DNA from: Deltaproteobacteria bacterium
Lineage (GTDB): Bacteria; Desulfobacterota; Desulfuromonadia; Desulfuromonadales; Geopsychrobacteraceae
Assembly: GCA_024280485.1 (NCBI GenBank)
Contig: JAJRQB010000056.1
Location: 1-64,000, forward strand
Length of the DNA stretch: 64,000 nt
Reading direction: 5' to 3'
Part shown: one piece after another, positions 19,195 to 57,393 of the stretch
Position numbering within the stretch: position 1 is the stretch's first letter
Layout of the letters: each line of letters opens with the position of its first letter
Notes under the pieces: model-generated
Databases searched by the model: none
What the model saw: the letters and a program-made list of their open reading frames with translations, nothing else
What the model was told of the DNA's origin: nothing
Position numbers and translations under genes: made by a program

Positions 19195-19221
19195 AGGTTA
19201 TCTCCACTTGCTGCAAAGCAA

Positions 19222-41493: not shown

Positions 41494-41812
41494 TATCGTT
41501 GATCCCCTCAATTCAGTCGAATCGAGCACACCCTTAACAGGAGGAATGGCGCGTGTCGATTAAGACAATCTTTCGATATTTTAAGGCCGGTTGACCCCTC
41601 TCCATATATTACACCTCTGCCTGCTGGCCTAACTAAACATTGGTGTCCATCTTCCATGCCTGCCTCAGTCTTCGCAGGAAAACCTTTGGCACAGCTACTC
41701 GACATTCATAACCTTTCCCCCTTATTTTCAAGACTAGTCAGCACCACTCAGAGCCAATTCATGCCACAGCCTCTTTGTTTGAGTCACAGGTCCGTTTAAA
41801 GGCGCATTTTTT

Positions 41813-41821
41813 TGATATAAT
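41813..41821 (+). promoter_or_regulatory. Extended -10 promoter of the rnf-por-kor operon
   Basis: TGATATAAT: a perfect TATAAT at 41816-41821 with the TGn extension. No good -35 is seen at 17 bases. Transcription would begin near 41828, about 16 bases before the rnfB ATG. Confidence 0.6.
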
Positions 41822-41843
41822 AGTGCGAGGCTTTATAGGACAT

Positions 41844-42734
41844 ATGACACCCATGACCCCTCTGGATTTTGAAAAGATACTCTTGGCCTTTTCCGCAATG
41901 GCCCTACTGGGTCTACTTCTTTCGGCCCTTTTGGCGCTGGCTCATCGAACTCTGTTCGTGCCAGTCGATCCCCGCATTGAGGGGCTGGTCGAGATGTTAC
42001 CGGGCTCCAATTGCGGCGCCTGCGGCAACCCGAGTTGCCAGGCCTTCGCGGAGGCTTTGGTCGCCGAGACCGCTTCGCCTGCCCAATGTACGGTTGTCGC
42101 GCCCGAAGAGGTCAGCCGAATCGCCGCATATCTAGGAGTCGCGGCGGGCGAAATTGACCGCCAGGTGGCGCGGCTGGCCTGCGCGGGGGGAAACAACGTG
42201 GCCCGACAACGAGCCTGGTACGAAGGTTGGCCGAGCTGCCAGGCGGCGGACCAGGTGGCTGGCGGCGCCAAGGGCTGCGCCTGGGGCTGCCTGGGGCTGG
42301 GCGACTGCGAACGGTCCTGCGATTTTGCCGCCATCGTCATGAACGAACAGGGGCTGCCCGAAGTGATTGCCGGCAACTGTACCGCCTGCGGCGACTGCGT
42401 CGATGCCTGCCCCAAGGATCTATTCAGCCTGGAGCTTATGCGACACAAACTCTGGGTAGCCTGCAAGAACCTGCTGTTCGACGAAGAGGCGGAAGCGGAA
42501 TGCGCGGTGGCCTGTAACGGCTGCGGGCTCTGCGTCAAGGATGCCGCCCCCGGGCTGATCAGCATGCAGGACAACCTGGCGGTGATCGATCGCGAGCGGA
42601 TGGAGCTGGCCACCAGAGACGCCATCAAACGCTGTCCGACCGGCGCGATCGTCTGGATCGAAGACGACGAGCAGGAACTGAAAGGAGACAAGGCCAAACG
42701 GATCATCCGCCGCAGTCCCCTGCCGATAGGTTGA
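41844..42734 (+). CDS. rnfB: Rnf complex subunit B (ferredoxin-type iron-sulfur protein)
   Basis: A 296-residue RnfB, the expected ferredoxin-docking subunit. After an N-terminal membrane helix comes NCGACGNPSC (the RnfB-specific cluster), then ferredoxin motifs GCAWGCLGLGDCERSC and CTACGDCVDACP, both complete. The next pair is reduced: CAVACNGCGLCVKDAAP lacks its last Cys, and the final motif keeps only the Cys of RCPTGAI. In a 2[4Fe-4S] fold these lost ligands all belong to one cluster, so one cluster appears cleanly removed. The ATG at 41844 follows TAGGA and fits the promoter position. First gene of the operon; in most Rnf operons rnfB is last. Confidence 0.92.
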   Translation: MTPMTPLDFEKILLAFSAMALLGLLLSALLALAHRTLFVPVDPRIEGLVEMLPGSNCGACGNPSCQAFAEALVAETASPAQCTVVAPEEVSRIAAYLGVAAGEIDRQVARLACAGGNNVARQRAWYEGWPSCQAADQVAGGAKGCAWGCLGLGDCERSCDFAAIVMNEQGLPEVIAGNCTACGDCVDACPKDLFSLELMRHKLWVACKNLLFDEEAEAECAVACNGCGLCVKDAAPGLISMQDNLAVIDRERMELATRDAIKRCPTGAIVWIEDDEQELKGDKAKRIIRRSPLPIG

Positions 42735-42814
42735 CTACCGCTAGCTCGAGATAAGGACGCAGAATTTTTAATTTCTGATTTTTTACAGTCACTCCCATGT
42801 TATCCGGAGGTGCG

Positions 42815-45800
42815 ATGAAGAAGCAGACCTTTAAATATCCCGGCATCCCAAGCGCCATGGACGGCAATACGGCGGTGGTCATGTGCGAGCGGGAATCGAC
42901 CGACGCAGCGGGTGCCTTCCCCATCACCCCCTCCACCCAGATGGGCGAATACTTCGAGGCCAACGCCACCAACGGTCACCTCAACGTCGGAGGCAGGCCG
43001 CTGCTCTTCATCGAACCGGAAGGGGAACACGCCTCGGCGGCGGTGACCGCCGGATTTGCCATGACCGGCTGGCGGGCGGCCAATTTCAGTTCGGGCCAGG
43101 GGATCGCCTACATGCATGAATCCCTGTATGCCGCGGTCGGCAAGCGTCTGACCTATGTGCTCAACATGGGTTGCCGCGCCATGACCAAGGCCAGCCTCAG
43201 CGTTCACGCCGGACACGACGACTACCACGCTATCGACGACACCGGCTTCTTCCAGCTGTTCGCCAAGGACATCCAGCAGGTTGCGGACTTTAACATCCTC
43301 GCCCACCGGATCGCCGAGCTAAGCCTGACCCCCGGGGTGATGGCCCAGGACGGTTTCCTGACCACCCACATGATCGAATCGCTGCTCCTCCCGGAACGGG
43401 AACTGATCGCCGAATTCCTCGGCCTGCCCGATGATCTCATCGACTGTCCGACCCCAGCCCAGAAGTTGCTGTTCGGCCCGCGACGACGGCGGGTGCCCGA
43501 GCTCTGGGACGTCGACAATCCGCTCTTGGCCGGACCGGTGCAGAACCAGGAATCCTACATGCAGCAGGTGGCCGCCCAACGGCCCTACTTCTTCGACCCC
43601 ATCCTGGGGTTGGCCGAGCAGGCCTTCGAGGAGTATTTCCAGCTCACCGGTCGCCGCTATCGGCCGATCGAGGGCTACCTGCTCGACGACGCCGAATACC
43701 TGATCATGGGCCAGGGAAGCATGATCCCCAACGCCGAGGCGGTGGCCGACTATCTCAGAACCAAGAAGATCAAGGTGGGGGTACTCAACCTGAGCCTCTG
43801 GCGTCCCTTCCCGGGAGGCCAGCTGGCGGAGCTCCTCAAGGGGCGCAAGGGGGTGACGGTGCTGGAGCGGCTGGACCAGCCGCTGGCCGAGGATCTACCG
43901 ATGATACGCGAGGTCCGTTCGGTGCTCGGCAAATGCCTGGAGAACGGCAGGGAGGACGTAACCCCCCATGCCAACTACCCCGCCTACCGCCCGGAGCAGG
44001 TCCCGCTCCTCTACTCCGGCAGCTACGGCATGGGTTCCAGGGACCTGCAACCCGAGGCGCTGATCGGCGCGGTGGAGAACATGCTGCCCGAGGGTGCCGG
44101 CAAGAAGTTCTTCTACCTCTCCATCGACTTCATCCACCGGAACCCCGCCACGCCCAAGCAGGAGATCTACTCTCAGAGTCTAGAGGACAGCTTCCCCGGC
44201 ATCGGCGAGCTGGCGGTCAGGGGGAGCGAGAACCCCAACCTGCTGCCGGAGGGAAGCATCAGCGTACGCATCCATTCTATCGGCGGCTGGGGCGCCATCG
44301 CCACGGGCAAGAACCTGACCATGACCCTGGCCGACATCCTCGGCTACCAGATCAAGTCGAACCCCAAATACGGCTCCGAGAAGAAGGGGCAGCCGACGAC
44401 CTACTATCTCTCGGTGGCTCCCGAGCCGATCAGGATCAACTGCGAGTACTACCATGTCGACACCGTCCTCTCTCCCGACCCCAACGTCTTCGCCCATACC
44501 AACCCCCTGGGAGGTCTGAGACAGGGCGGAATCTTCATCATCCAGAGCGACGCCGAAGATCCCGCAGAGGTCTGGGCATCGATCCCCCTCAAGTACCGCA
44601 AGCTGCTGGTCGAGCGACAGATCCGCTGCTACTGCCTCGACGCCTTCAAAATTGCGCGCGAGGAGGCCAGCGACCCGGAACTACTCTTCCGCATGCAGGG
44701 GATCGCCTTCCAGGGAGCCTTCTTCAAGGCCGCACCGCTGATGCAGGAGGCCAAGCTCAGCGAGACGTCCCTGTTCGAGAAGATCGAGACCCAGCTCCGT
44801 CACAAGTTCGGTGCCAAGGGGGAGCAGATGGTGGCCGACAACCTGCGGGTGGTCGAGCGCGGTTTCGCCGAGACCCGCGAAATATGCGAGATGCCGTTGG
44901 ACGAGGCCGAAAGTGCCGAAGAGAGCGGGCAGGTCAAGGAGTTCCTGCCCGCCGAACTCAAGCTGCTGCCCGCTTCCAAGGTGCCGATCAGCGACATCCA
45001 GCGCTTCTGGGAGGAGATCGGTCAATTTTACCACAGCGGTCGCTCCAGCCAGATCCTCAGCGACCCCTTTGCGGCGATGAGTTTGATGCCCGCCAGCAGC
45101 GGAATCTTCCGCGACCTGAGCGGCATCCGCTTCGAGCACCCCGAATTTATCCCAGAACGCTGCACCGGCTGCGGCGACTGTTGGGTGGCCTGTCCCGATT
45201 CGGCCCTGCCCGGTCTGGTCAACGAGATCGGCGAAATCTTCGAGACGCTGATCGACCGGCTGGAACGCAAAGGCCACGAATTCAGCGAGCTGCGCAAAGC
45301 GGTCAGACCGCTCGAGACAGAGCTGCGGGAGCGGATTGATGCCAGCGAGGAAGACAGCATCGATCTCCAGGCGCTGCTGCAGGAGCTGATCGCAGCGAGA
45401 CGGGAGAACGCTTCGGAGAGACTGCAGGAGGAATTAGCGCTGTTGCAGGAAGAGATGGCCGAACTCCAGCTGGCCGTCACCAAGCCCTATTACCGCACCC
45501 CGGAGAAGGAGGCCAAAGGCTCGGGCGGACTGCTCTCGATCACGGTCAACCCCTACAGCTGCAAGGGCTGCATGGAGTGCGTGGCGGTCTGCGGCGACAA
45601 GGCGTTGCGCAACGTCCCCCAGACAGCGCAGAGCATAGCGCAAATGCGCCGCAGGTGGGAGCTGTGGCACGACCTGCCGACCACCCAGGAGCGCTTCAGG
45701 CGGATCGACGATCTGGAGGAGGCGATCGGCGCGCTGGAAGGCCTGCTGCTCGACAAACAGAACTACCTCGCCATGGTCGGCGGCGACGGGGCCTGCCTCG

Positions 45801-47380
45801 GCTGCGCCGAGAAGACACTGCTGCACCTGTTCACCGCCACGGTCACCGCCCTGATGCAACCACGGGTGAGCGCCTTCCTGGCCAAACTGGAGAGCATGAT
45901 CGAAGGACTGGAGGAGAAGATCCACCAGGCCCTGACGGTCCATTTCGACGACCCGGCCAGACTGAGCGAGCTGGTGACGGGGCTCAAACAGCAGGAAGTC
46001 ACCCTGGCCGACATCGCTGGCCAACTCGATCCGCAGCAGACCCCCGTCGATCTGGAACTGCTCAGAACTACCAGCCAACTCCTGAGCGAACTCAAGGAGT
46101 TGATCTGGCGATACCGGGAGGGGGTCAGCGGTCGGGGACGCTGCAAACTGGGCCTGATCAACGCCACCGGCTGCTCGAGCGTCTGGGGCTCCAGCTACCC
46201 CTTCAACCCCTATCCCGTCCCCTGGGCCAACCACCTCTTCCAGGACAGCCCGTCGCTCGCTATGGGCGTCTTCGAAGGACACATGCGCAAGATGGCGGAC
46301 AACTTCAAACTGGTCCGCCGCGCCGAGGTCGAACTGGGAGAGCGGGAAGCGGAGGATTTGACCTACTTCAACTGGGAAGATTTTTCCGACGAGGAATTTC
46401 TGCTCTGCCCGCCGGTGGTGACGGTGGGGGGCGACGGGGCGATGTACGACATCGGCTTTCAGAATCTCTCGCGGATGCTGATGACCGGCAAGCCGATCAA
46501 GGTGGTGGTCCTCGACACCCAGGTCTATTCCAATACCGGCGGCCAGGCCTGCACCTCGGGCTTCACCGGGCAAATCTCCGACATGGCCACTTTCGGCAGC
46601 CGAAGCCAGGGAAAGCAGGAGATCCGTAAGGAGATCGGCCTGATCGGCATGGCCCATCGGACCAGCTACGTGATGCAATCGAGCCTGGCCTCGGCCTCGC
46701 ACCTGATGGAGGGCTTCATCGAAGGGATGATGTGCAAGCGTCCCGCCCTCTTCAACCTCTTCACCTCCTGCCAGCCGGAACACGGCATCGCCGACGATGC
46801 TGCCACCCGCCAGGCGCGGCTGGCCCTGGAATCGCGGGCCTACCCCTTCTTCCGCTACAACCCGGATAAGGGGGTCACCCCGCCCGAGTGTTTCGACCTC
46901 GACGGCAACCCGGACCCGGATCGGGATTGGACCAGCTACGAGCTGCACTACCTGGATGATGCGGGGGAGCAGCAGAGCATGGAAATCACCCTGACCTTTG
47001 CCGACTACGCCGCCAGCGAAGGCCGCTTCCGCCCACACTTCAAACCGCTGCCCCGCGAGACCTGGGACGATGAAAAGCTGAAACCGGTGGCCGAGTTCCT
47101 GGAGTTGGAGCCGGACGAACGCGAGGAGCTGCTCCCCTTCATCTGGGCGGTCGACCGGGAGAACCGCCTCACCCGCCTGGCGGTCTCCGCAACCATCATC
47201 ACCGCCACCGAGGACCGGCGCAGCTTCTGGAAGATCCTGAAATCGATGGCCGGCATCGAGACTACGGCCAGGGATGAACTGGCCGAAGAGATCAAGGGGG
47301 AACTGCTCGGCAATCTGACCAGAAATCTGATTGCCCTGACCAGGGGGGCCGCCGATCCGTCCGAGCCGGAAGAAATATGA
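42815..47380 (+). CDS. Giant pyruvate:ferredoxin oxidoreductase-like protein with insertions and a C-terminal extension
   Basis: A 1521-residue 2-oxoacid:ferredoxin oxidoreductase; ordinary single-chain PFORs have about 1170-1200 residues. In order: domain I with DGNTAVV, FPITPS and EGEHASAA; domain II; the gamma-type domain (RIHSIGGWGAIATGKNL); ferredoxin motifs CTGCGDCWVACP (near 783) and CKGCMECVAVCG (near 916) separated by about 120 residues of charged coiled coil; the TPP domain with CLGCAEK, a second coiled-coil insertion, GCSSVWGSSYPF, the TPP/metal motif GGDGAMYDIG (near 1204) and YSNTGGQ; and a C-terminal extension of about 180 residues also found in the last gene of this operon. It should interconvert a 2-oxoacid plus CoA with acyl-CoA, CO2 and reduced ferredoxin. 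GGAGG supports the ATG at 42815. Pyruvate is the likeliest substrate but unproven. Confidence 0.9.
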   Translation: MKKQTFKYPGIPSAMDGNTAVVMCERESTDAAGAFPITPSTQMGEYFEANATNGHLNVGGRPLLFIEPEGEHASAAVTAGFAMTGWRAANFSSGQGIAYMHESLYAAVGKRLTYVLNMGCRAMTKASLSVHAGHDDYHAIDDTGFFQLFAKDIQQVADFNILAHRIAELSLTPGVMAQDGFLTTHMIESLLLPERELIAEFLGLPDDLIDCPTPAQKLLFGPRRRRVPELWDVDNPLLAGPVQNQESYMQQVAAQRPYFFDPILGLAEQAFEEYFQLTGRRYRPIEGYLLDDAEYLIMGQGSMIPNAEAVADYLRTKKIKVGVLNLSLWRPFPGGQLAELLKGRKGVTVLERLDQPLAEDLPMIREVRSVLGKCLENGREDVTPHANYPAYRPEQVPLLYSGSYGMGSRDLQPEALIGAVENMLPEGAGKKFFYLSIDFIHRNPATPKQEIYSQSLEDSFPGIGELAVRGSENPNLLPEGSISVRIHSIGGWGAIATGKNLTMTLADILGYQIKSNPKYGSEKKGQPTTYYLSVAPEPIRINCEYYHVDTVLSPDPNVFAHTNPLGGLRQGGIFIIQSDAEDPAEVWASIPLKYRKLLVERQIRCYCLDAFKIAREEASDPELLFRMQGIAFQGAFFKAAPLMQEAKLSETSLFEKIETQLRHKFGAKGEQMVADNLRVVERGFAETREICEMPLDEAESAEESGQVKEFLPAELKLLPASKVPISDIQRFWEEIGQFYHSGRSSQILSDPFAAMSLMPASSGIFRDLSGIRFEHPEFIPERCTGCGDCWVACPDSALPGLVNEIGEIFETLIDRLERKGHEFSELRKAVRPLETELRERIDASEEDSIDLQALLQELIAARRENASERLQEELALLQEEMAELQLAVTKPYYRTPEKEAKGSGGLLSITVNPYSCKGCMECVAVCGDKALRNVPQTAQSIAQMRRRWELWHDLPTTQERFRRIDDLEEAIGALEGLLLDKQNYLAMVGGDGACLGCAEKTLLHLFTATVTALMQPRVSAFLAKLESMIEGLEEKIHQALTVHFDDPARLSELVTGLKQQEVTLADIAGQLDPQQTPVDLELLRTTSQLLSELKELIWRYREGVSGRGRCKLGLINATGCSSVWGSSYPFNPYPVPWANHLFQDSPSLAMGVFEGHMRKMADNFKLVRRAEVELGEREAEDLTYFNWEDFSDEEFLLCPPVVTVGGDGAMYDIGFQNLSRMLMTGKPIKVVVLDTQVYSNTGGQACTSGFTGQISDMATFGSRSQGKQEIRKEIGLIGMAHRTSYVMQSSLASASHLMEGFIEGMMCKRPALFNLFTSCQPEHGIADDAATRQARLALESRAYPFFRYNPDKGVTPPECFDLDGNPDPDRDWTSYELHYLDDAGEQQSMEITLTFADYAASEGRFRPHFKPLPRETWDDEKLKPVAEFLELEPDEREELLPFIWAVDRENRLTRLAVSATIITATEDRRSFWKILKSMAGIETTARDELAEEIKGELLGNLTRNLIALTRGAADPSEPEEI

Positions 47381-48696
47381 GTCTGCCGAGCTTTGCCCAG
47401 GGCATCCATCCGCCAACGGCCAAGCAACTGACGGCGGCGAAGCCGATCCGGCGCTTCCCCTTCGCCCCCTATCTGGTGATTCTGCTCTCCCAGCACATCG
47501 GCCAACCGGCCAAGCCGGTGGTCCGCCAGGGGGAGGAGGTCCAGCGCGGGCAGCTGATCGCAGAGGCCCAGGGCTTCCTGTCGGTGCCGATGCATGCGCC
47601 AGCCACCGGCCGGGTGACCAGGATCGGCAAGGCGCTCGACATGAGCGGACGGATGGCGCAGGCAGTGATGATCGAACCCTACCCCGCCGCGGAACAGGAA
47701 TTTCCGGAGCGCCAGGGGACAGATCCCCTGCAGTGCAGCGCCGCGGAACTGCTGCAACTGGTCCAAAACAGCGGCATGGTCGGTCTCGGCGGTGCCGCCT
47801 TTCCGACCCATGTCAAGATTCAGGCCAGTCTCGACAAGGGGGTCGAAACCCTGATCGTCAACGGCTGTGAATGCGAACCCTATTTGACCTGTGATCACCG
47901 GGTGATGCTCGAATATCCCGCCGAGGTGATCCTCGGGATCAGGATACTCCTTAAGAGCCTCTCCATCGACCGGGCGCTGATCGCCATCGAGGAGAACAAG
48001 GCCGATGCCGCCGCTGTCCTGCGGGCCGCAATCGAACCGGACTGGCCGATCGAGGTACAGCTGCTGCAGACCAAATATCCGCAAGGGGCCGAAAAGCTGC
48101 TCACCCAGGCGCTGTTGGGCAGGGAGATCCCGGCTGGAAAACTGCCAGCGGACATCGGCGTGATGGTCTCCAACGTCGCCACCCTGATGGAGATCGCCCG
48201 GCTGATCCCCAGAGGCCAGGGGATCATCGAGCGGGTGGTCACCCTCTCCGGCGAAGGGCTCGGCAAGCCCGGCAACTATCTGGTCCCCATCGGCACCCCC
48301 CTCGATTTCATCCTGGACCGAGTGGGGTTGGAGGCGGAGCAGCCGCGGGTGATCTTCGGCGGGCCGCTGATGGGAAAACCGGTGGCCTGCCTGCAGACGC
48401 CGACCACCAAGGGGGTGACCGGCATCCTGGTGCTCAAGGGGCCGCCGCCCGACCATCCTCGACCCGCGCCCAGCCCCTGTATCCTGTGCGGCGACTGCCT
48501 CAGGGTCTGCCCCCTGCAGCTCAACCCCAGCATGCTGGGACGACTGGCCCAGCGAAGCCTGTACGAGGAGATGGCCCATGAGTATCACCTGCGGGACTGT
48601 TTCGAATGCGGCTGCTGTGCCTATGTCTGCCCAGCGCGAATCCCTCTGGTACAACTGTTCCAGGCCGCCAAGACCAACCTGAGGAAACTGGGATGA
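47377..48696 (+). CDS. rnfC: Rnf complex subunit C
   Basis: A 439-residue peripheral subunit with the NADH/FMN-type Rossmann core related to NuoF. Family parts are GIHPPTAKQLTAAKPIRRFP, a barrel-sandwich region (VPMHAPATGRV), GMVGLGGAAFPTHVK, NGCECEPYLTCDHR, and two ferredoxin motifs, CILCGDCLRVCP and CFECGCCAYVCP. It is the predicted NADH-oxidising subunit. Its ATG overlaps the PFOR stop by four bases (ATGA), so expression of Rnf and this PFOR is coupled. Confidence 0.96.
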   Translation: MSLPSFAQGIHPPTAKQLTAAKPIRRFPFAPYLVILLSQHIGQPAKPVVRQGEEVQRGQLIAEAQGFLSVPMHAPATGRVTRIGKALDMSGRMAQAVMIEPYPAAEQEFPERQGTDPLQCSAAELLQLVQNSGMVGLGGAAFPTHVKIQASLDKGVETLIVNGCECEPYLTCDHRVMLEYPAEVILGIRILLKSLSIDRALIAIEENKADAAAVLRAAIEPDWPIEVQLLQTKYPQGAEKLLTQALLGREIPAGKLPADIGVMVSNVATLMEIARLIPRGQGIIERVVTLSGEGLGKPGNYLVPIGTPLDFILDRVGLEAEQPRVIFGGPLMGKPVACLQTPTTKGVTGILVLKGPPPDHPRPAPSPCILCGDCLRVCPLQLNPSMLGRLAQRSLYEEMAHEYHLRDCFECGCCAYVCPARIPLVQLFQAAKTNLRKLG

Positions 48697-49724
48697 AACA
48701 ACCCGACTATCTCAAGGTGCACCTCAAGGCCGCCCCCCACATCCATTCGGGACGTGAGGTGGAAGGGATCATGCGGCGGGTCGTCTATGCCCTGCTGCCG
48801 GTCGCCCTCTTTGCGGTCGCCAAGTACGGCCTCTCGGCACTCGCGCTGTTGGCCGTCTGCATCCTCGGGAGCTTGGGGACCGAATACTGGATCCTCAGCA
48901 GGCGGGATCCGCAGGCCAGCTTCGGCGGGGACGGTTCGGCACTGTTGACCGGACTGCTGCTGGCCCTTACTCTGCCCGCCGGGCTGCCGCTGTGGATGGC
49001 CCTGGTGGGGTCTATCATCGCCATCCTGCTGGGCAAGCAGGCCTTCGGCGGGCTGGGACAGAACCCCTTCAACCCCGCCCTGGTCGGCCGGGTTTTCCTG
49101 CAGACCGCCTTCCCCCAGGCCATGACCAGCTGGCATCCCGCCTGGGCCGCGGAGCGCTTCGACAAGCTGTTCGGCTCCAGCCTGACCCTCCCGCTGCTGA
49201 GCCCCGAATACGACGGCCTGAGCGGCGCCACCCCCCTGGGTTTGAGCAAGTTCGAAGGGCTCAGCACCGAACTGGGCGCCCTGCTTCTGGACCAGACCGC
49301 CGGTTCCATCGGCGAGGGTTCGCCGCTGCTGTTGTTGCTGGGCGGCCTCTACCTGGTCTGCAAGCGGGACCTCGACTGGCGGATTCCGAGCGCAATCCTT
49401 GCCTCCCTCTTCCTCTTCAGTACGACAGTCCACCTGCTTGATCCTTCAGGCGCGCCCAGCCCCGGGTTCATGCTGATCTCCGGCGGACTGCTGCTCGGCG
49501 CAATCTATATGGCCACCGACATGGTCAGCTCGCCGGTGACGCCCGGCGCGGTCTGGAGCTACGGGATTTTCATCGGCCTGCTGGTGGCAACGATCCGCCT
49601 CTGGGGCGGCATGCCCGAAGGGGTGGCCTTTGCCATCCTGCTCGCCAACAGTCTGGTCCCGCTGCTCAACCGGGCCTTCCCGCCGCGGGTCTACGGCTAC
49701 CGGCAAGGGGGCCGAGATGGCTGA
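48693..49724 (+). CDS. rnfD: Rnf complex subunit D
   Basis: A 343-residue membrane subunit related to NqrB, with about ten hydrophobic helices. GGLGQNPFNPALVGRVFLQTAFP is typical, and LSGATPLG contains the Thr that carries covalent FMN in this family. The true start at 48693 overlaps the rnfC stop by four bases; the longer ORF begins inside rnfC. Confidence 0.95.
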   Translation: MKQPDYLKVHLKAAPHIHSGREVEGIMRRVVYALLPVALFAVAKYGLSALALLAVCILGSLGTEYWILSRRDPQASFGGDGSALLTGLLLALTLPAGLPLWMALVGSIIAILLGKQAFGGLGQNPFNPALVGRVFLQTAFPQAMTSWHPAWAAERFDKLFGSSLTLPLLSPEYDGLSGATPLGLSKFEGLSTELGALLLDQTAGSIGEGSPLLLLLGGLYLVCKRDLDWRIPSAILASLFLFSTTVHLLDPSGAPSPGFMLISGGLLLGAIYMATDMVSSPVTPGAVWSYGIFIGLLVATIRLWGGMPEGVAFAILLANSLVPLLNRAFPPRVYGYRQGGRDG

Positions 49725-50436
49725 AGCGATGGCAAGTCCGCAAACAGAAAAGACCCCGGCCCGCAAACTGATCCGGACCCTGACCCTGACGGCGGCGCTC
49801 TCGGGGCTGCTGATCGTCCTGGTCTACCAGTTGACCCTGCCGATTATTCGACGGAACCAGGCCGCGGCCCTCAAAAAGACGATCCTGCGGATGCGCCCCG
49901 ACACCCAACGGATCGGCTATTTCCAGCTGACGCCTGCCGGACTGACAGCGCGCCGAGAGCGGCAGGAGACACAGAAGCAGGCCAGACCCCTCTACGTCGG
50001 CTATAATGAAAAGGACGAGCTGACCGGCGTCTGGGCCGAGGCCAGCGGGATCGGCTACCAGGATCGGCTCAAACTGCTGTTCGCCATCGATCCCCGCCGG
50101 CAACTGATCATCGGCATGGCGGTGCTGGAGAGCAAGGAGACCCCGGGACTGGGGGACCGGATCGAAAAAGACCCGCAATTCCAGGCCAACTTTACCGCCC
50201 TCGACGCCAGACTGAATCGGCAGGGGACAGAGTTGGAACATGAGATCCACACGGTAAAGAAAGGCCGCAAGCAGCACCCCTGGGAGATCGACGGGATCAC
50301 CGGCGCCACTATCAGCGCCAAGGCGGTGGGGAGGATCTTGAACCAGGCCGCACAGCTGACGCTGCCTCTGGTGGTCAAACATCTGGAGCGTTTGGAAACG
50401 GGAGAGACAGGAGATACGGAAAATTCAGAATTCTGA
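49717..50436 (+). CDS. rnfG: Rnf complex subunit G (FMN-binding)
   Basis: A 239-residue protein with one N-terminal membrane helix and a periplasmic FMN-binding domain. DGITGATISAKAV is the S/T-GAT motif whose second Thr is flavinylated. TPGLGDRIEKDPQFQ is also characteristic. The start at 49717 overlaps the rnfD end by eight bases; upstream in-frame residues belong to another frame of rnfD. No apbE flavin transferase is in the window. Confidence 0.94.
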   Translation: MAEAMASPQTEKTPARKLIRTLTLTAALSGLLIVLVYQLTLPIIRRNQAAALKKTILRMRPDTQRIGYFQLTPAGLTARRERQETQKQARPLYVGYNEKDELTGVWAEASGIGYQDRLKLLFAIDPRRQLIIGMAVLESKETPGLGDRIEKDPQFQANFTALDARLNRQGTELEHEIHTVKKGRKQHPWEIDGITGATISAKAVGRILNQAAQLTLPLVVKHLERLETGETGDTENSEF

Positions 50437-50455
50437 ATTTCCGGGGAGCTTAAGG

Positions 50456-51136
50456 ATGAACGATCAGCCTGATTTCGACATGAACCTCTTTCTCAAGGGC
50501 CTCTGGCGGGAGAACCCGGTCTTCGTCCAGCTGTTGGGGATGTGCCCGCTGCTGGCGGTTTCCAACACGGTGATCAACGCCCTGGCCATGGGATTGGCCA
50601 CCAGCTTCGTACTGGTCATGTCCGCCGCCCTGATCTCCCTGCTGAGAAACCGGATCCCCAAAGAGGTGCGGATCGCCACCTTCATCCTGATCATCGCCAG
50701 CTTCGTCACCTGCGCCGAACTGCTGCTGCAGGCGATCAGCCTGGAGACCCACCGGGCGCTGGGCCCCTTCGTCTCCCTGATCGTGGTCAACTGCATCATC
50801 CTCGGCCAGGCCGAGTCCTTCGCTTCGAAAAACGGCCTGCTGCGCTCCGTCGCGGACGCCCTGGGCAGGGGGGCGGGCTTCACCTTCGCCATCTTCTGCA
50901 TGGGCGGACTGCGCGAAGTGATCGGTAGCGGCAGCTTCATGGGACAAGCCCTGTTCGGCGCCCAGTATCAGCCCTGGGTGATCCTGATCCTGCCCGGTGG
51001 CGGATTCTTCGCCCTCGGCCTGCTGCTGCTGATCTATAACCGCATCAGCCCCGTAAGCAGAAGTCCGCAGCGCGGTTGTCATCTGCTTCAGGAGCTACCC
51101 GATAAGAAGTTCGGCGCCGGAAAGGTCAAGACATGA
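50456..51136 (+). CDS. rnfE: Rnf complex subunit E
   Basis: A 226-residue membrane subunit with six helices, related to NqrD and inverted in topology relative to RnfA. LLGMCPLLAVSNTVINALAMG and LIVVNCIILGQAESFAS carry the Cys residues that, in solved Rnf/Nqr structures, bind an intramembrane iron-sulfur centre together with RnfA. A GGGGAGCTTAAGG stretch precedes the ATG. It overlaps rnfA by four bases. Confidence 0.95.
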   Translation: MNDQPDFDMNLFLKGLWRENPVFVQLLGMCPLLAVSNTVINALAMGLATSFVLVMSAALISLLRNRIPKEVRIATFILIIASFVTCAELLLQAISLETHRALGPFVSLIVVNCIILGQAESFASKNGLLRSVADALGRGAGFTFAIFCMGGLREVIGSGSFMGQALFGAQYQPWVILILPGGGFFALGLLLLIYNRISPVSRSPQRGCHLLQELPDKKFGAGKVKT

Positions 51137-51714
51137 ATAGCGACTCGCTGGGCTATATCTTCATCAACGCGCTGCTGATCAACAACTTCGTGCTCGCCTA
51201 TTTCCTCGGTATCTGCCCCTTTTTGGGGGTCTCGGCCAAGCTCTCCACGGCCTGGCGGATGGGCGCAGCGGTCAGCTTCGTGATGCTGGTTTCGAGCGCA
51301 GCGGCCTACGGCATCTATCAACTGCTGCTGGCCATCGACGCCACCTATCTGAAACTGGTCGCCTATGTCGTGGTGATCGCGGCCTGCGTGCAGTTGGTGG
51401 AGATGTTCGTCAAGAAGACCAGTCCGGCCCTCTTTCAGGCCCTGGGGATCTTCCTCCCCCTGATCACCACCAACTGCGCCATCCTCGGTCTGGCGCTGTT
51501 TCAGACCAGCCGCGACTACAATTTCTGGCAATCGCTGGTCTTCGCCCTGGGCGCAGGTGGCGGCTTCACCCTGGCGCTGGTGATCATGGCAGGTCTGCGC
51601 CACGAGTTGCGTCTGGCACAGATCCCCAATCTGGTGGAAGGGACGGCCCTGACCCTGATGCTGGCGGGAATTTTATCGATGTCGTTCATGGGGTTCGCCG
51701 GGCTGGGTGGGTGA
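51133..51714 (+). CDS. rnfA: Rnf complex subunit A
   Basis: A 193-residue membrane subunit with six helices, related to NqrE. NNFVLAYFLGICPFLGVS and LPLITTNCAILGLALF carry the paired Cys residues expected for the shared intramembrane cluster with RnfE. With it the Rnf set B, C, D, G, E, A is complete. Whether Na+ or H+ is moved cannot be read from the sequence by eye. Confidence 0.95.
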   Translation: MNSDSLGYIFINALLINNFVLAYFLGICPFLGVSAKLSTAWRMGAAVSFVMLVSSAAAYGIYQLLLAIDATYLKLVAYVVVIAACVQLVEMFVKKTSPALFQALGIFLPLITTNCAILGLALFQTSRDYNFWQSLVFALGAGGGFTLALVIMAGLRHELRLAQIPNLVEGTALTLMLAGILSMSFMGFAGLGG

Positions 51715-51761
51715 AAACGCTGCCTTAACAAAGTTCCGCGGCAGGACGGGAGAAGCAGAAA

Positions 51762-53612
51762 TTGGCTATCCATAAGCAATCGGTCAAGGAACATATCCTG
51801 GAGATCGTCTCCGATGCCGGGGAGGGTGCCCAGAAGGCCGGGGAGGTCTTCGCCAAGACTGCGGCCCGGATGGGTAATGGTCTCTGGACCGAGGCGATCA
51901 TCCCGGCGGAGATCCAGCCCCCTGCCCACGGCGTCAGGAGTTCGTCGGGAATCCGCATCCGCTTCGGCTCGGACTTCGTCAGCAACGGCGGCGACCTGAC
52001 CAACCTGGCCCTGGTCTTCAACGAGATGTCGCTCCTCTCGCGGCTCCAGATTGGCAGCCTGGCCGACGACGTGATCGTGATCATCGACGACATCTGGTCC
52101 AAAGACCCCTCCAGGGAGATCCGCGAGCACTACCGGGAACTGCTGGATGGGATTCGGCAGCGCGGCGGACGGGTGGTTGAGGTACCGCTGCAGGAGGAGA
52201 CGCTCAAGATTGTCGAAGAGCCCAACCCGGGCAAGAACATGTTCGCCCTCGGGCTGCTCGGTTTCGTCTACGAGCGGAACCAGAAACTGCTGGCCGCCGT
52301 CGTCAGCGAGGCCTTCCAGGCCAAGCCTGCGGAGGTGCTACGCAGCAACCTGAAACTGCTCGACGCCGGTTACCAATGGGCCAAAGTTCACCTCGATTTC
52401 CAGTTCGAGGTTCCCGGCATGCAGAGCCGAAAGCCGATGCTGGCCATGAACGGAAATCAGGCCCTGGCCCTCGGCTCGATCGCCGCGGGCTTTGAACTCT
52501 GCTCCATGTACCCGATCACCCCGGCAACCTCGGTCTCCCAGTATCTGGCCGCGATTTTCGAAGAGTTTGGCGGCTTCGTCCACCAGGCCGAAGATGAACT
52601 GGCCGCCATCGGTGTGGCCCTGGGAGCCAATTTTGCCGGCAAACCAGCGTTCACCGTCACCTCGGGTCCGGGGATGGCGCTCAAGACCGAGTTCATGGGG
52701 TTGGCGGTGATGACCGAAATCCCGCTGGTAGTGATCGACGTGCAACGCGGCGGACCGAGCACCGGCCTGCCGACCAAGGTCGAACAGGGCGATCTGCTCT
52801 CGAGCATCTTTGCCACCCCGGGTGATGCACCCAAGGTGGTGCTGGCCGCCAGCAGTATTGGCGACTGCTTCAAACTGATGCAGACAGCCCGCCGGATCGC
52901 CGAGGACTTCCGGATGCTGGTGATCCTGCTCTCCGACGCCAACCTGGCCAGCGGGGTGCAACTCTTCGAACGGCCCGAGCTCATGCTGGATGAGATCGCC
53001 AGACCGATGTCGGCGGGCACCAGTCACAAGGGCGATCTCGCCTACGACTGGCAGGAGGAGACCGGGCTCTCCAAACGGCTGATCCCCGGCCGCTCGAAAG
53101 AGGTGGGGATGACCTCGAGCCTCAACCATTCGCCCGCCGGTCTGGTGCGCTCCGACACCGAGTCGAACGAGCTGGCCCACCGGATGCGCAGTCACAAGCT
53201 GGCGGCGCTGCAGCAAGCCCTCAAGCCGCCCGCCCTGCACGGCGCCGAGCAGGGCGAACTGCTGGTGGTCGGCTGGGGCAGCACCAGGGGTGCCATCGAG
53301 GAGGCGGTGGACCGGCTCAGAGCCGCAGGGCAGAGGGTCTCCTCCCTCCACCTGGTATTTCTGAACCCCCTGCCGCCGGGCCTAAAAGAGATCTTCGGCC
53401 GTTTCAAGCAGGTGATGTGCGTGGAGATCAACTATGCCGATGCCGCGGACGACGCCTTCGTCGGCGAGGGCCGCAGATACAGCCAACTGGCCTTCCTGCT
53501 GCGCGCCCAGACTCTGGTCGATGTCGATTGCTTTGCCCGGGTCTGCGGACGGGCACTACGACCGATGGAGATCGCCGAGGTACTGGAGAAGAAACTCGGG
53601 GGCAGCCCCTAG
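51762..53612 (+). CDS. korA: 2-oxoacid:ferredoxin oxidoreductase, fused gamma-alpha subunit (KorA-like)
   Basis: A 616-residue subunit. The N-terminal ~200 residues form the gamma-type domain (GIRIRFGSDFVSNGGDLTNLALVFNE); the rest is the alpha (Pyr) domain with GNQALALGSIAAGFELCSMYPITPATSVSQYL, HQAEDELAAIGVALGANFAG, TVTSGPGMALKTEFMGLAVMTEIPLVVIDVQRGGPSTGLPTKVEQGDLL, and a C-terminal transketolase-like domain. This two-chain form often acts on 2-oxoglutarate, though others use branched or aromatic 2-oxoacids. The start is TTG, 10 bases after GGGAGA; no ATG is suitably placed. It lies 47 bp after rnfA. Confidence 0.9.
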   Translation: MAIHKQSVKEHILEIVSDAGEGAQKAGEVFAKTAARMGNGLWTEAIIPAEIQPPAHGVRSSSGIRIRFGSDFVSNGGDLTNLALVFNEMSLLSRLQIGSLADDVIVIIDDIWSKDPSREIREHYRELLDGIRQRGGRVVEVPLQEETLKIVEEPNPGKNMFALGLLGFVYERNQKLLAAVVSEAFQAKPAEVLRSNLKLLDAGYQWAKVHLDFQFEVPGMQSRKPMLAMNGNQALALGSIAAGFELCSMYPITPATSVSQYLAAIFEEFGGFVHQAEDELAAIGVALGANFAGKPAFTVTSGPGMALKTEFMGLAVMTEIPLVVIDVQRGGPSTGLPTKVEQGDLLSSIFATPGDAPKVVLAASSIGDCFKLMQTARRIAEDFRMLVILLSDANLASGVQLFERPELMLDEIARPMSAGTSHKGDLAYDWQEETGLSKRLIPGRSKEVGMTSSLNHSPAGLVRSDTESNELAHRMRSHKLAALQQALKPPALHGAEQGELLVVGWGSTRGAIEEAVDRLRAAGQRVSSLHLVFLNPLPPGLKEIFGRFKQVMCVEINYADAADDAFVGEGRRYSQLAFLLRAQTLVDVDCFARVCGRALRPMEIAEVLEKKLGGSP

Positions 53613-53629
53613 GGTCCTGTTTTGAAAGG

Positions 53630-53875
53630 GGTCGAAGGTTATAAACATATCCCCTTCGCCGCAGCCGAAGCGCAGTCGCGATTTTGAGGAATTCGAAAGC
53701 AAATGTTTGAGGCGTCAGCCGAGTTTTTGCCCGAACTCAAAAGCGCGATAGAGTGGAGGGAACCCGCCAGCGGCGGGCAAGACGTTGGGGCGCTTTTCTT
53801 TGCTTCGTTTCTTTGGGCGGCCAAAGAAATGAAGGCGCCGTCCGGGGGCGCAACCCCGGGGTCTCAACCATGGCC
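53630..53875. repeat. Non-coding repeat-like element between korA and korB
   Basis: The 278-bp gap holds no credible gene but three tight inverted repeats: CCCGCC/GGCGGG (53763-53777), TTTCTTTGG/CCAAAGAAA (53808-53829) and CCGGGG/CCCCGG (53842-53859). The CTTTTCTTTG...CCAAAGAAATGA type sequence resembles dispersed intergenic repeats of other Desulfuromonadales and gammaproteobacteria, from memory. It splits two genes whose products form one enzyme. Confidence 0.5.
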
Positions 53876-53890
53876 GAGTAAAGGATAAGC

Positions 53891-54859
53891 ATGGACCAAC
53901 TACCGATCGATGAGTTTCTGACCGATCTCTGCCCCTTCGAGAAGCAACTCGATCTCGACGACTACCTGGGCGAAGCGCCGCGCTGGTGCCAGGGCTGCGG
54001 TGATCTGGGGATTCTGACTGCGGTGCAGAAGCTGCTGCGGGACAACCAGGCCGAGCCGACCGAAGTGGTTTGCGTTTCGGGAATCGGCTGCTCCAGCCGC
54101 TTCCCCTACTACCTGAAGGCATTCGGCTTTCACGGCATTCATGGCCGGGCACTGCCTATCTCCACCGGCGTGGCGCTGGCCAACCCAAAACTCAAGGTCC
54201 TGACCGTGATGGGTGACGGGGATTGCTTCTCCATCGGCGCGGGGCATTGGGTCCATGCGATCAGATATAACGTCAACCTGCTGGCCATGGTCCTCGACAA
54301 TGAGATCTACGGACTGACCAGAGAGCAGACCAGCCCCACCACCCCCCTCGGCACCCGCACCCGCACCACGCCGAAGGGCGCTTTTCTGCCGCCCCTGAAC
54401 CCACTGCAACTGATGCTGGGAGTCAGCAACCTCTCCTTTCTGGCCCAGACCGCCACCTGGTTGCCCCAACATCTTCTGGCCACGCTGCAACAGGCCTACC
54501 GGCACCAGGGACTGGCCTTCGTACGCATCCTGCAGCACTGCCCGGTCTTCTCGCCGCAGGCCTTCGGCGAAGGGGGCAAGGATGCAGAGCTGATGGAGTT
54601 TTTGTACCATGTGCAGGGGATTGCCATCGACCCCGCCCTGGAAAGGTTCGGGGGGCGACGCGAGCATGACCCCGCCGACCTGGCGACGGCGCAGAGACTG
54701 GCCAGCGAACGGGAACGTGAGCCGCTGGGGCTGCTCTACCAGAATCCGGATTTGCCCAGCTACGAGACCATCCGCCATGCCGCCCTGGCCCACCCGAGCC
54801 CCGCAGAGAAACTGACGTTGCTGAACCGGCGTCTGGACCGACTAGCCCCCGAGGGATGA
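53891..54859 (+). CDS. korB: 2-oxoacid:ferredoxin oxidoreductase beta subunit (KorB-like)
   Basis: A 322-residue TPP-binding subunit, partner of KorA. It shows WCQGCGDLGILTAV and GIGCSSRFPYY with cluster-binding Cys residues, HGRALPISTGVALANPKL, and the TPP/metal motif MGDGDCFSIGAGHWVHAIRYN ending LDNEIYGLTREQTSPTTPLGT. The cluster ligands in the short form are in this chain. AAGGA precedes the ATG. Its stop overlaps the next start (ATGATGA). Confidence 0.92.
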   Translation: MDQLPIDEFLTDLCPFEKQLDLDDYLGEAPRWCQGCGDLGILTAVQKLLRDNQAEPTEVVCVSGIGCSSRFPYYLKAFGFHGIHGRALPISTGVALANPKLKVLTVMGDGDCFSIGAGHWVHAIRYNVNLLAMVLDNEIYGLTREQTSPTTPLGTRTRTTPKGAFLPPLNPLQLMLGVSNLSFLAQTATWLPQHLLATLQQAYRHQGLAFVRILQHCPVFSPQAFGEGGKDAELMEFLYHVQGIAIDPALERFGGRREHDPADLATAQRLASEREREPLGLLYQNPDLPSYETIRHAALAHPSPAEKLTLLNRRLDRLAPEG

Positions 54860-56592
54860 TGAAACAGCGACTCGAAAAAATCTTCGCGCAGGGTTTTCAG
54901 GACCTGCAACAGCAACTGCTGCAGCGCATCGCGGCCAGTCTGGAACCGGTCGAGGCCTGGCTACGGAGCGAGCAGGAAGCGGAGCGGCAACATCCGCCCG
55001 CTCCTGATCCCTATCTGGATGAAAGGATCCTGAGAGGCCTGTTACGGGAGATCAATATACGCAGCAAGCTCAGTCACGCCGAATGGGAGCGCCTGGAAGA
55101 GGTCAGGGCACGGATCGATACGGTGCGCGCACAGATTCAAGATCAGGCCCCCGCCCCCCTGCTGCTCGACCAGAATGATCCGGCGCAGATCCAACAGGCC
55201 TTCGAGACCCATTACGGATACTATGCCGAACTCTTTCGCGACCTGAGAATACTCGACCTGTCGCTGGCCGGAGAGTACCTTCCGGAACTGCATGATTCAG
55301 CCCTGTCCGCCTTCTCCTGGAAGGAACTGACCGACCGGGAGATGGCGTTGATCCCTCCCCTGGTGGTGTTCCTCGCCACCGAGCGGCCCCTGGTCGAGAC
55401 CACGGCCCTGGCGCTCAAGCTGCTGACCACCGGCCTGCCGCTCAAGCTGCTGGCGCTGCAACAGAACATCCAGACTCCAAGAGAAACGGGCCGCGCCCTG
55501 GCCCATCGGTTCCATCCCGATCTCGGTTTTTTCGGTCTCAGCCTGAGGTCGGCCTATGTGCTCCAGGCCACAGAGGATATCGAATCCTTCGACCAGGAGG
55601 TCATGGCCGCTCTCCGCTCTCCGCGCCCCGCCCTGCTCTCCCTCTGGGACGGAACCGGCGATGACCCGCGCCAGTCCCAGCTGGCACTGGCGTCCAGAGT
55701 CTTCCCCTACCTGCGCTACGACCCCGAGCTGGGACTCGACTGCACGAGCTGCCTGGAGATCGGCAAGAATCCGCACCCCGAAACAGCCTGGGTCTCCGAA
55801 ATTCTGCCGCTGCCAGGCGGCGGCGAGGAGGAGCGACCCTTGACCTTCGCCGAGTTCGCCTGGCATGTCCTGGATCAAAAGGAAGAGTTTGCCCCCTTGA
55901 ACGAACCCGGACCGGAGAATCCCAGTCTGGCCGATTACCTGGAGATGGAGACTGACGAGCGGCACCATCTCAGGCCCTACATCCTGGTCAGCGAGGCAGG
56001 AGAGACACGCGTCCTGCTCCCCTCGAACAACATCCTCTACCAATGCCAGGACCGAATGCGCCTCTGGCGTAGCCTGCAGAGTCTGGCGGGGGCCGATCAG
56101 CCCTCCGAAGATGCAGCTGTCGCGGCCCGGGAGGACAGTCCGCAGGAGATAGCAGGACGAATCGCGGCGGAGCGGGAGCAGGCCGTCGCCCAGGCGCTGC
56201 AGACCCTCTCCCGCAAGTTGCTGGGACTCGAGGAGATGGAGCTTGCCCTCGGCGGCGAAGATTTCAAACTCGACCTCAGGGGGCTCGACGAAGCGCTGAG
56301 TTCGAGCGGGACAGCACCTCCGGCAACCGGCGCGGCGGGCCCCTCCGACCTACCCTGGATCGAAACCAAACTCTGCACCGCCTGCGACGAATGCACCAAT
56401 ATCAACAAACGGATCTTCGTCTACGACAAGGAGAAGCAGGCGGTCATCAAGAATCCCCGCGGCGGCCCCTTCCGCGACATCGTCAAGGCGGCGGAAAAAT
56501 GTTCAGCCGCCATCATCCACCCGGGCAAGCCCCTCGACCCGAAGGAGAAGGATCTGGCCAAGTGGATCAAGCGGGCAGAGAAGTACCAGTGA
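54856..56592 (+). CDS. Degenerate PFOR beta-like protein with a shared C-terminal domain and a ferredoxin-like tail
   Basis: A 578-residue protein with no clear named family. Its N-terminal third is helical. The middle aligns by eye with the second half of the giant PFOR's TPP domain: LLTTGLPLKLLALQQN against LMTGKPIKVVVLDTQ, SAYVLQATEDIESFDQEVM against SYVMQSSLASASHLMEGF, and SRVFPYLRYDPELG against SRAYPFFRYNPDKG. The GDG TPP motif and YSNTGGQ are absent, so it should not bind TPP. The following ~150 residues match the PFOR C-terminal extension (DYLEMETDERHHLRPYI / FLELEPDEREELLPFI; RMRLWRSLQSLAG / RRSFWKILKSMAG). The last ~80 residues are a small iron-sulfur domain, CTACDEC then KCSAAIIHPG. 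It may be an electron-transfer or docking subunit for the POR-Rnf system; that is inference. Confidence 0.75.
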   Translation: MMKQRLEKIFAQGFQDLQQQLLQRIAASLEPVEAWLRSEQEAERQHPPAPDPYLDERILRGLLREINIRSKLSHAEWERLEEVRARIDTVRAQIQDQAPAPLLLDQNDPAQIQQAFETHYGYYAELFRDLRILDLSLAGEYLPELHDSALSAFSWKELTDREMALIPPLVVFLATERPLVETTALALKLLTTGLPLKLLALQQNIQTPRETGRALAHRFHPDLGFFGLSLRSAYVLQATEDIESFDQEVMAALRSPRPALLSLWDGTGDDPRQSQLALASRVFPYLRYDPELGLDCTSCLEIGKNPHPETAWVSEILPLPGGGEEERPLTFAEFAWHVLDQKEEFAPLNEPGPENPSLADYLEMETDERHHLRPYILVSEAGETRVLLPSNNILYQCQDRMRLWRSLQSLAGADQPSEDAAVAAREDSPQEIAGRIAAEREQAVAQALQTLSRKLLGLEEMELALGGEDFKLDLRGLDEALSSSGTAPPATGAAGPSDLPWIETKLCTACDECTNINKRIFVYDKEKQAVIKNPRGGPFRDIVKAAEKCSAAIIHPGKPLDPKEKDLAKWIKRAEKYQ

Positions 56593-56697
56593 AGTTCAGA
56601 GGGTTCAAAAAAGGAGAGAAAAACCGCAACGTTATTACTTCTAGCCTAGCGGATCGGGACGCGAACGGTTTCTTGATGGTATCCGGGGAGAGGAAAA

Positions 56698-57393
56698 TCA
56701 CTGGCTGGCTGAAAGAACCTCAAGCAGTTCGACCTCAAAGATCAGGGTTTGACCGGCTAACGGACCCCGATCGGCATAGGCCAGCTTGCTCGGGATGTAG
56801 AGTTCCCACTTGGCACCTTCCTGCATTAACTGCAACCCCTCAGCCATCCCGGCTACCAGGTTCTGCACATTCAATTCGAGCGGTTTTCCAGCGGTGGAGC
56901 TCTTAGAAAAAATTTCCCCCTTGAGGGTCTTACCCTGGTAATTCAGTTTGACCCGGTCCTTCATTGCCGGCTTTCTGCCTTTTCCTTCACGCAAGATCAG
57001 GTACTGCAATCCGCTGTCACGTACGACCACTTCCCCACGCTGGCCGTTTCTCAGCAGAAAAGTTTCGCTCTCTTTGCGGATCTGCAGGTTTTGAGCGACA
57101 CTGTCTTCGATCAGATACTTTTTCGGATCCCGCAGCATCACTCTCATTACGCCCTTGGACATCAGTGGCCGAACGTTCTTCCGTGCGTCGTTTATCCCCT
57201 TGAGTACGGCATCGGAAACGAGCGTCAGTTTCTGATTTTGGAACATATCTCCCAGCTTGTAGCCCGCCGCATAACTCAGTCGATTGAGACTGCGGTCCCA
57301 ATCGATCGAGGTCTCTGCCTGTTGAATTTCTGCAGTGCCTGCACTGCACCCGGCAACCAGTATCATAAGAAATATGCAGAACCAACGCATCAT
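56698..57393 (-). CDS. FKBP-family lipoprotein, probably without full isomerase activity
   Basis: A 231-residue exported protein. LMILVAGC is a lipobox, so it is likely anchored by a lipid on Cys16. An FKBP_N-like helical region (LSYAAGYKLGDMF) precedes the FKBP domain (RDSGLQYLILREGKGRKP, VKLNYQGKTLKGEIF, EGLQLMQEGAKWELYIPSKLAY). The usual FDSS with active-site Asp reads FSKSS, and the PGW at the pocket floor reads AGM. These changes suggest a chaperone or binding role. Last of three FKBP paralogues downstream of the multicopper oxidase. The preceding plus-strand operon ends 105 bp away with no clear terminator. Confidence 0.88.
   Translation of the reverse strand: MMRWFCIFLMILVAGCSAGTAEIQQAETSIDWDRSLNRLSYAAGYKLGDMFQNQKLTLVSDAVLKGINDARKNVRPLMSKGVMRVMLRDPKKYLIEDSVAQNLQIRKESETFLLRNGQRGEVVVRDSGLQYLILREGKGRKPAMKDRVKLNYQGKTLKGEIFSKSSTAGKPLELNVQNLVAGMAEGLQLMQEGAKWELYIPSKLAYADRGPLAGQTLIFEVELLEVLSASQ

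Follow-up and report, generated by a model that had tools for sequence, protein, structure and literature searches.

Why should the gene for a giant pyruvate:ferredoxin oxidoreductase (PFOR) lie inside an operon for the Rnf complex, between rnfB and rnfC? We met this arrangement in a stretch of 64,000 nucleotides (the window) of contig JAJRQB010000056.1, from a deltaproteobacterium of the Geopsychrobacteraceae. Open reading frames and family assignments place ten plus-strand genes at 41844-56592, encoding in order RnfB, the PFOR, RnfC, D, G, E and A, the KorA and KorB chains of a 2-oxoacid:ferredoxin oxidoreductase (KOR) and a protein of 578 amino acids (aa) that we named KorX in the present analysis (Table 1). 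Family profiles bear out the content described in an original prediction made from the sequence alone: all six Rnf subunits in one operon-like run, with rnfG assigned by its FMN_bind domain, the PFOR between rnfB and rnfC, and a KOR of two chains. We consider it likely that this block is a single electron-transfer unit in which the 2-oxoacid oxidoreductase is permanently paired with a specialised Rnf pump.

The arrangement is widespread and its gene order is conserved. A scan of one genome per species (84,980 species) confirmed 570 stretches, among which ordinary PFORs may be numerous; the best 80 were kept, with PFOR identities of 57-63%, a bound of at least 57% that is a selection and leaves more distant members outside the set. 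Together with two plasmid loci they form the 82 loci in which gene order was counted. The plasmid-listed records are those of Persicobacter psychrovividus and Gemmatirosa kalamazoonensis (59% and 51% PFOR identity, respectively), in which the match to the PFOR extends over 98-99% of its length and rnf genes lie around it. The replicons that carry these two modules (L027 and L028) are about 1.1 Mb long, are entered as plasmids and might have served to spread the module. Going by record titles, the combination of this PFOR with rnfC, or with more of the rnf genes, is found in no fewer than nine phyla, namely the Pseudomonadota, Bacteroidota, Acidobacteriota, Myxococcota, Calditrichota, Planctomycetota, Hydrogenedentota, Verrucomicrobiota and Gemmatimonadota, and most of the carrier records are metagenome-assembled genomes (MAGs). 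Among the 68 loci with at least 1.2 kb of room, rnfC was found no more than 2 kb downstream of the PFOR gene in 66 (a count that takes in a half gene in L097), the exceptions being L089 and L094. Where there was room of at least 7 kb, rnfC, D, G, E and A all lay downstream of the PFOR in 50 of 54 loci, with L036, L056, L094 and L097 as exceptions. The position of rnfB is more variable: of 50 loci with room on both sides, 30 have it directly upstream of the PFOR gene, 18 have it downstream and 2 lack it. Because rnfC follows the PFOR so closely in 66 of the 68 testable loci, the order and content of the PFOR-rnf arrangement are far beyond chance.

The proteins have also diverged in step. Across the 52 of 83 loci with complete PFOR, rnfB, C, D, E and A genes (rnfG was omitted), the pairwise protein distances of PFOR and RnfC were correlated with a rho of 0.92 and those of the best Rnf-Rnf pair, RnfC and RnfE, with a rho of 0.84, a ranking that should not be overread, as the length of the PFOR lowers its noise. 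The remaining PFOR-Rnf pairs gave 0.72-0.83 and the highest correlation for any pair in 200 permutations was 0.35. In a tree of 47 RnfC proteins, rooted only at the midpoint, we included 29 linked to PFORs of the kind found in the window (PFOR1), 5 linked to a second subfamily described below (PFOR2), 12 others and 1 unassigned. The PFOR-linked rows and the unassigned one are split from the 12 others by a branch with a support of 99 in the Shimodaira-Hasegawa-like approximate likelihood ratio test. The second RnfC copy of the host falls among those 12, on the opposite side from the PFOR-linked group, and the RnfC of the window pairs with that of a Pseudomonadales MAG (L029; support 98). By these comparisons the PFOR and rnf genes are inherited together, with L089, L094 and L097 as exceptions. 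Conserved order, co-divergence and a separate Rnf group all support the dedicated module that the original prediction had proposed.

The PFOR itself has retained its catalytic apparatus. Twelve cluster cysteines, the GDG motif and the Asn of the thiamine pyrophosphate (TPP) site are invariant in the 83 PFORs of our residue table, one row of which has X at T44. R127, presumably the pyruvate-binding Arg, is conserved in all 83 as well, which is suggestive only for pyruvate as the substrate. The window's protein scores 368 bits against the TIGR02176 profile, whose cut-off is 911, and its sequence assigns it to a divergent PFOR subfamily and not to the TIGR02176 equivalog. When the profile of the relatives is aligned to the Moorella PFOR (6cin), the two ferredoxin motifs and the proximal-cluster segments are seen to be pushed apart, and a model of the C-terminal half of an Allomuricauda relative (L045) has helices at both insert sites, one of them of 46 residues (predicted local distance difference test score, pLDDT, of 71). 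The C-terminal extension is unmatched by the canonical PFOR of the host, to which the window's PFOR is only 28% identical over its N-terminal part.

In most relatives the C-terminal domain resembles ferredoxin I of D. africanus (1fxr; 57 columns, 0.9 Å), which we take to be the partner of PFOR in that organism. A profile of this domain found one match in each of 79 untruncated loci (L048, L063, L066 and L092, which end at contig ends, were left out). In 75 loci the domain is fused to the PFOR; in the other 4 a separate protein encoded in the cluster carries it, and it was never outside the cluster in this set. The window is one of the four: its PFOR lacks the domain and the 578-aa protein carries it. 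The domain is found on the KorX counterpart in L094, on a 228-codon frame after rnfA in L029 and on a 117-codon frame between the PFOR gene and rnfC in L107. On our reading, this ferredoxin-I-like domain would be a dedicated electron outlet.

PFOR2 provides the strongest hint that PFOR may be a physical part of Rnf, a hint that the window by itself could not give. This second subfamily is present in 6 of 38 carrier genomes (the genomes of 38 of the 80 kept loci, searched in full) and is 24-32% identical to the PFOR of the window. All six members are found in the order rnfB-PFOR2-rnfC, and korA-korB-KorX lies ahead of this order in five. The sixth, which was found with a profile built from the other five and was read by eye, outside the residue table, lies on a contig of 5.8 kb that breaks off on either side of it. 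GDG and all four proximal cysteines have been lost from the five aligned proteins, and likewise by eye from the sixth, so PFOR2 does not qualify as a catalytic PFOR. The second insert can be recognised in all six and the first in five. Three of the five aligned proteins, and by eye the sixth, still have both ferredoxin clusters. No PFOR2 has the ferredoxin domain, and all six genomes encode a KorX that carries it. Because PFOR2 has lost the chemistry and yet retains the inserts and the same slot in the operon, it is most simply seen as a probable scaffold between KOR-KorX and Rnf. One contig of the Pseudomonadales MAG ETNP8_MAG_37 (L139, L140 and L156) has korA-korB-KorX-rnfB-PFOR2-rnfCDGEA followed by rnfB-PFOR-rnfCDGEA and a separate ferredoxin frame, and offers a natural comparison between an intact PFOR and a motif-less one.

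KorX seems to belong with the KOR. Open frames of 504-873 codons for standalone relatives turned up at 17 places in 16 of the 38 carrier genomes, and at each of the 17 they come after korA-korB on the same strand. These counts do not include the ferredoxin-only frames of G449 (228 codons) and G485 (117 codons), nor the protein at G472:C167, a second intact PFOR that has the ferredoxin domain and rnfC-D behind it. With the window's protein included, all 18 match the C-terminal region of PFOR and 14 have the ferredoxin domain; the four without it are all in genomes in which the domain is fused to the PFOR. The window's KorX is devoid of the TPP motif and of the proximal cysteines, and its structure model (pLDDT 79) matches PFOR (E 4e-5, with a low template modelling, TM, score) and ferredoxin I (TM 0.86 by the length of the target). 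On its sequence and on the position of its relatives, behind korA-korB at all 17 places, we assign KorX as a KOR partner that shares ancestry with the C-terminal half of PFOR. The same finding led us to reject a role for it as an accessory to the PFOR; of the PFOR-derived accessory that had been predicted, the ancestry stands and the partner is different. A PFOR helical insert as the source of the N-terminus of KorX was not supported (best E 0.27). Since the four KorX proteins that lack the domain coexist with a PFOR-fused copy, and since the KorX model matches ferredoxin I, a ferredoxin plug of one kind can terminate both PFOR and KOR, and a cluster may place it on either enzyme.

A path for the electrons can be proposed. 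The thiamine centre of the PFOR would take two electrons from pyruvate, or another 2-oxoacid, on decarboxylation, and these would pass through the three [4Fe-4S] clusters of the PFOR to the dedicated ferredoxin-I-like domain, which most relatives have as part of the PFOR chain and the window has on KorX. The steps beyond that domain are drawn from the established function of Rnf: electrons would enter at RnfB or RnfC and reach NAD+ with an outward movement of Na+ or H+. KorAB would feed the same Rnf via KorX. The net result would be an oxidoreductase of 2-oxoacid, CoA and NAD+ that is coupled to an ion gradient and needs no free ferredoxin pool; it would be reversible in principle, in that the gradient could drive the synthesis of 2-oxoacids. 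The usual aerobic routes from pyruvate and 2-oxoglutarate are the pyruvate and 2-oxoglutarate dehydrogenases (PDH and OGDH), and oxidation by the proposed unit would conserve the energy that these enzymes lose (potentials of about -500 versus -320 mV). Rnf has been discussed mostly in anaerobes and nitrogen fixers, and the carriers include taxa that are generally regarded as aerobic. A bolder proposal, to which we give slightly less than even credence, is that the block specifies an unrecognised respiratory complex, an ion-pumping 2-oxoacid:NAD oxidoreductase: PFOR would be an Rnf subunit with its ferredoxin built in, the PFOR2 scaffold would dock KOR and KorX on Rnf, and the complex would have spread across phyla as an energy-conserving partner of PDH and OGDH.

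Free ferredoxin joins PFOR to Rnf in the textbook arrangement, and the linkage in this block might likewise be functional only, with a soluble PFOR and KOR, a ferredoxin that diffuses to Rnf, and genes that travel together and are regulated together, the ferredoxin domain being merely a convenient carrier. That the block is mobile, being an island here and part of two plasmid records elsewhere, would fit such an account, as would locus L094 (a Spirochaetia MAG, 10001-19270), where PFOR-korA-korB-KorX is kept with no rnf genes nearby and no rnfC was found in the genome. We think it unlikely, however, in view of the retention of a motif-less PFOR2 in the rnf operon, a co-divergence of PFOR and RnfC that exceeds that of pairs of Rnf subunits, the existence of a separate PFOR-linked Rnf group and the fusion of the ferredoxin domain to PFOR in 75 of 79 loci. 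The physical association that had been predicted from the place of the PFOR in the rnf order thus gains comparative support from order, co-divergence, the separate Rnf group, PFOR2 in the same slot and the in-cluster ferredoxin domain, physical contact itself being inferred. Several points weigh against a fixed partnership of oxidoreductase and pump, L094 among them. The evidence for the association is comparative, and the structure models, of the PFOR relative (pLDDT 71) and of KorX (79), are of moderate confidence. In L097 (Myxococcales bin5 chromosome, 14847-15770) only the first half of rnfC follows the PFOR gene, unrelated genes come next and no complete rnfC was found in the genome; we regard it as a decayed or rearranged module. 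The PFOR of L089 has no rnfC within reach, that of its genome being on another contig, and one or two rnf genes were not found downstream in L036 and L056. The Opitutaceae MAG that contains L108 also has a giant PFOR of a third kind (L219; G486:C189, about 4430-9150; a 1574-codon frame, 35% identical) that keeps the TPP motifs, lacks the ferredoxin domain and is located not between rnfB and rnfC but about 2.8 kb past rnfG-E-A. Two of the six PFOR2 proteins have lost some (L154) or all (L149) of the ferredoxin-cluster cysteines, and no electrons could pass through those clusters. Finally, an OGDH E1 match in 35 of the 38 carriers (34 over the curated cut-off and one split into two pieces) shows that the unit is not the sole route.

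Because OGDH E1 is found in those 35 carriers, E2 dehydrogenase in all 38 and an isocitrate lyase match in 10, the unit is likely to be an extra route beside the usual dehydrogenases. Replacement of OGDH by the KOR was considered and rejected on the strength of the E1 matches, the window's host having one as well. With regard to direction, our judgement leans slightly towards oxidation with conservation of energy, under low oxygen. Flux in the opposite direction, with reductive carboxylation by PFOR and KOR powered by NADH and the ion gradient and serving anaplerosis or CO2 fixation, is compatible with a fixed partnership and is a possibility that we rate somewhat lower. It is in agreement with the reversibility of Rnf given in a 2025 review of Rnf and NQR (PMC12174285), and another route of acetyl-CoA assimilation would be helpful to the 28 of 38 carriers with no isocitrate lyase match, a figure that has no background rate and decides nothing about direction. 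The window's host does have isocitrate lyase, however, and with OGDH E1 and E2 dehydrogenase so common among the carriers the need for the KOR is unclear in either direction. Fixation of CO2 during growth on acetate, as originally predicted, is not supported: because the host also encodes isocitrate lyase, OGDH E1 and further PFOR/KOR-type genes, its growth on acetate need not depend on the block.

The block is a horizontally acquired island in its present host, because its base composition shifts, an empty site exists in a close relative and the 578-aa protein has no strong relative in the phylum. The G+C content is about 63% inside the block and 52% outside; in 2-kb segments it is 49-55% outside, 61-66% inside and 56% in the segment that crosses the right edge. 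In G007, the nearest relative that we found (96% identity in the gene immediately upstream of the block), window position 41381 corresponds to base 11256 and position 56714 to base 11859 of stretch L171, such that about 600 bases stand in place of 15.3 kb. Identity to G007 is 88% in the left flank; in the right flank it is 64-76% close to the island and rises to 94% from 62338 onward. Among 394 other genomes sampled from the phylum the 578-aa protein had no relative at E <= 1e-8, and in 59 other genomes of a closer set there were only short ferredoxin-like matches, in 10 of them (E 4e-5 to 9e-4). A foreign fragment fused to the host contig during assembly or binning might be suspected from so sharp a G+C shift in a draft genome of 178 contigs. 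Such an artefact is very improbable, as the island and both flanks share one contig, the flanks match a single G007 contig around the empty site, the reading frames are intact and the PFOR-rnf unit is present in many other genomes. The original prediction had missed both the foreign origin, seen here from G+C content and the empty site in G007, and the ferredoxin domain of the 578-aa protein, which emerged from a profile search. The host has a second Rnf on contig C106, and an RnfD-family gene scoring over the cut-off is present in all nine genomes of the genus, that of the host included.

Within the island, overlaps of four bases, which had been predicted at several junctions, occur at four (PFOR/rnfC, rnfC/rnfD, rnfE/rnfA and korB/KorX), and rnfD and rnfG overlap by eight. 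The gene run is not tight throughout and the 278-base korA-korB spacer is its largest internal gap. The near-palindrome in this spacer occurs once in the window and resembles a small extragenic element. The KOR has the gamma-alpha fused KorA and the KorB of a two-chain enzyme, with KorB scoring under the TIGR02177 cut-off. Beside the right end of the island are three successive FKBP_N/FKBP_C isomerase genes (minus strand, 56698-59120). Rfam and transfer RNA scans found only a c-di-GMP-I riboswitch (RF01051, 55 bits; 62036-62114, minus strand), which is outside the block and just upstream of the multicopper oxidase gene at 59275-61950, also on the minus strand.

Table 1. Features of the PFOR-rnf-KOR block and of the island that contains it (window coordinates).
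Feature	Position	Strand	Description
rnfB	41844-42734	+	296 aa; multi-cluster ferredoxin-type subunit; FeS and Fer4 domains; TIGR01944 70.7 against a cut-off of 68.7 (narrow pass)
Giant single-chain PFOR	42797-47380	+	1527 aa; GDG/N TPP motif and 12 cluster cysteines kept; two inserts
rnfC	47377-48696	+	439 aa; TIGR01945 485.9 bits, over cut-off
rnfD	48693-49724	+	343 aa; TIGR01946 over cut-off
rnfG	49717-50436	+	239 aa; FMN_bind domain; TIGR01947 86.5, below the cut-off of 102
rnfE	50456-51136	+	226 aa; TIGR01948 over cut-off
rnfA	51133-51714	+	193 aa; TIGR01943 over cut-off
korA	51762-53612	+	616 aa; gamma-alpha fused chain of two-chain 2-oxoacid:ferredoxin oxidoreductase; TIGR03710 485.0 against 482.75 (narrow pass)
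korA-korB gap	53613-53890		278 bases; 22-base near-palindrome at 53808-53829
korB	53891-54859	+	322 aa; TIGR02177 232, below the cut-off of 262; NF008820 match; TPP_enzyme_C domain
KorX (578-aa protein)	54856-56592	+	C-terminal PFOR region, degenerate and lacking the TPP motif; residues ~500-578 are a ferredoxin-I-like [4Fe-4S] domain
Foreign island	41382-56713		G+C 61-66%; ~600 bases at the same site in G007

Each enzyme encoded by the block is of a known kind, and it is the wiring that varies. The PFOR has the domains, cluster ligands, TPP motif and fold of canonical homodimeric PFORs (D. africanus 1b0p and Moorella 6cin) and differs from them in its two inserts, its C-terminal extension and, in most relatives, the fused ferredoxin-I domain. 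All six subunits of canonical Rnf (rnfABCDGE or rnfBCDGEA) are present, in the order B-[PFOR]-CDGEA, but its rnfC falls in a distinct group of PFOR-linked sequences and an enzyme gene breaks into the operon. KorA and KorB, with the gamma-alpha fusion in KorA, are like the KorAB enzyme of Magnetococcus (6n2n), which we take to be two-chained; unlike that enzyme, they are followed by KorX, with its degenerate PFOR domain and its ferredoxin domain.

The rnf2 cluster of the Solemya velum gill symbiont likewise has PFOR genes between rnfB2 and rnfC2, and it has been suggested that pyruvate may feed Rnf there (PMC4287430); the available part of that account does not treat a fusion, a ferredoxin domain, KOR or KorX, the distribution of the arrangement or a motif-less PFOR. 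The record of this symbiont is L107 in our set (PFOR 58% identical), and the window differs from it in having KOR and KorX in the block and the ferredoxin domain on KorX in place of a separate 117-codon frame. Tubeworm symbionts and Thioflavicoccus have Rnf and 2-oxoglutarate:ferredoxin oxidoreductase genes together in one cluster for the reductive tricarboxylic acid cycle, where direct electron delivery has been suggested for the Flx-Hdr complex; unlike the window, that cluster has a four-subunit KorABCD interspersed with Flx-Hdr, and the available part of the paper (PMC6315080) does not describe a giant PFOR within rnf. Within the accessible parts of the open-licence literature, we found a PFOR inside rnf reported in PMC4287430 only, an earlier description elsewhere being possible as subscription papers were mostly outside this scope, and no report of the fused ferredoxin, KorX, PFOR2, the separate Rnf group or the wide distribution. 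The term 'PFOR' is absent from the main text of the 2025 review cited above (PMC12174285).

If the proposed unit operates as we suggest, carbon chemistry would be coupled directly to membrane energy. Members of the Flavobacteriaceae, Planctomycetota and Myxococcota, together with sulfur oxidisers, could then conserve the energy that is lost at two central steps of metabolism, or could reverse both steps at the expense of membrane energy. The natural fusion could show how a low-potential ferredoxin domain docks to Rnf, and PFOR2 would be an example of a PFOR that has probably become a scaffold. Culturable carriers, among them Persicobacter, Algoriphagus kandeliae, Allomuricauda and Sedimenticola hydrogenitrophicus, exist, so the PFOR-Rnf unit is directly testable.

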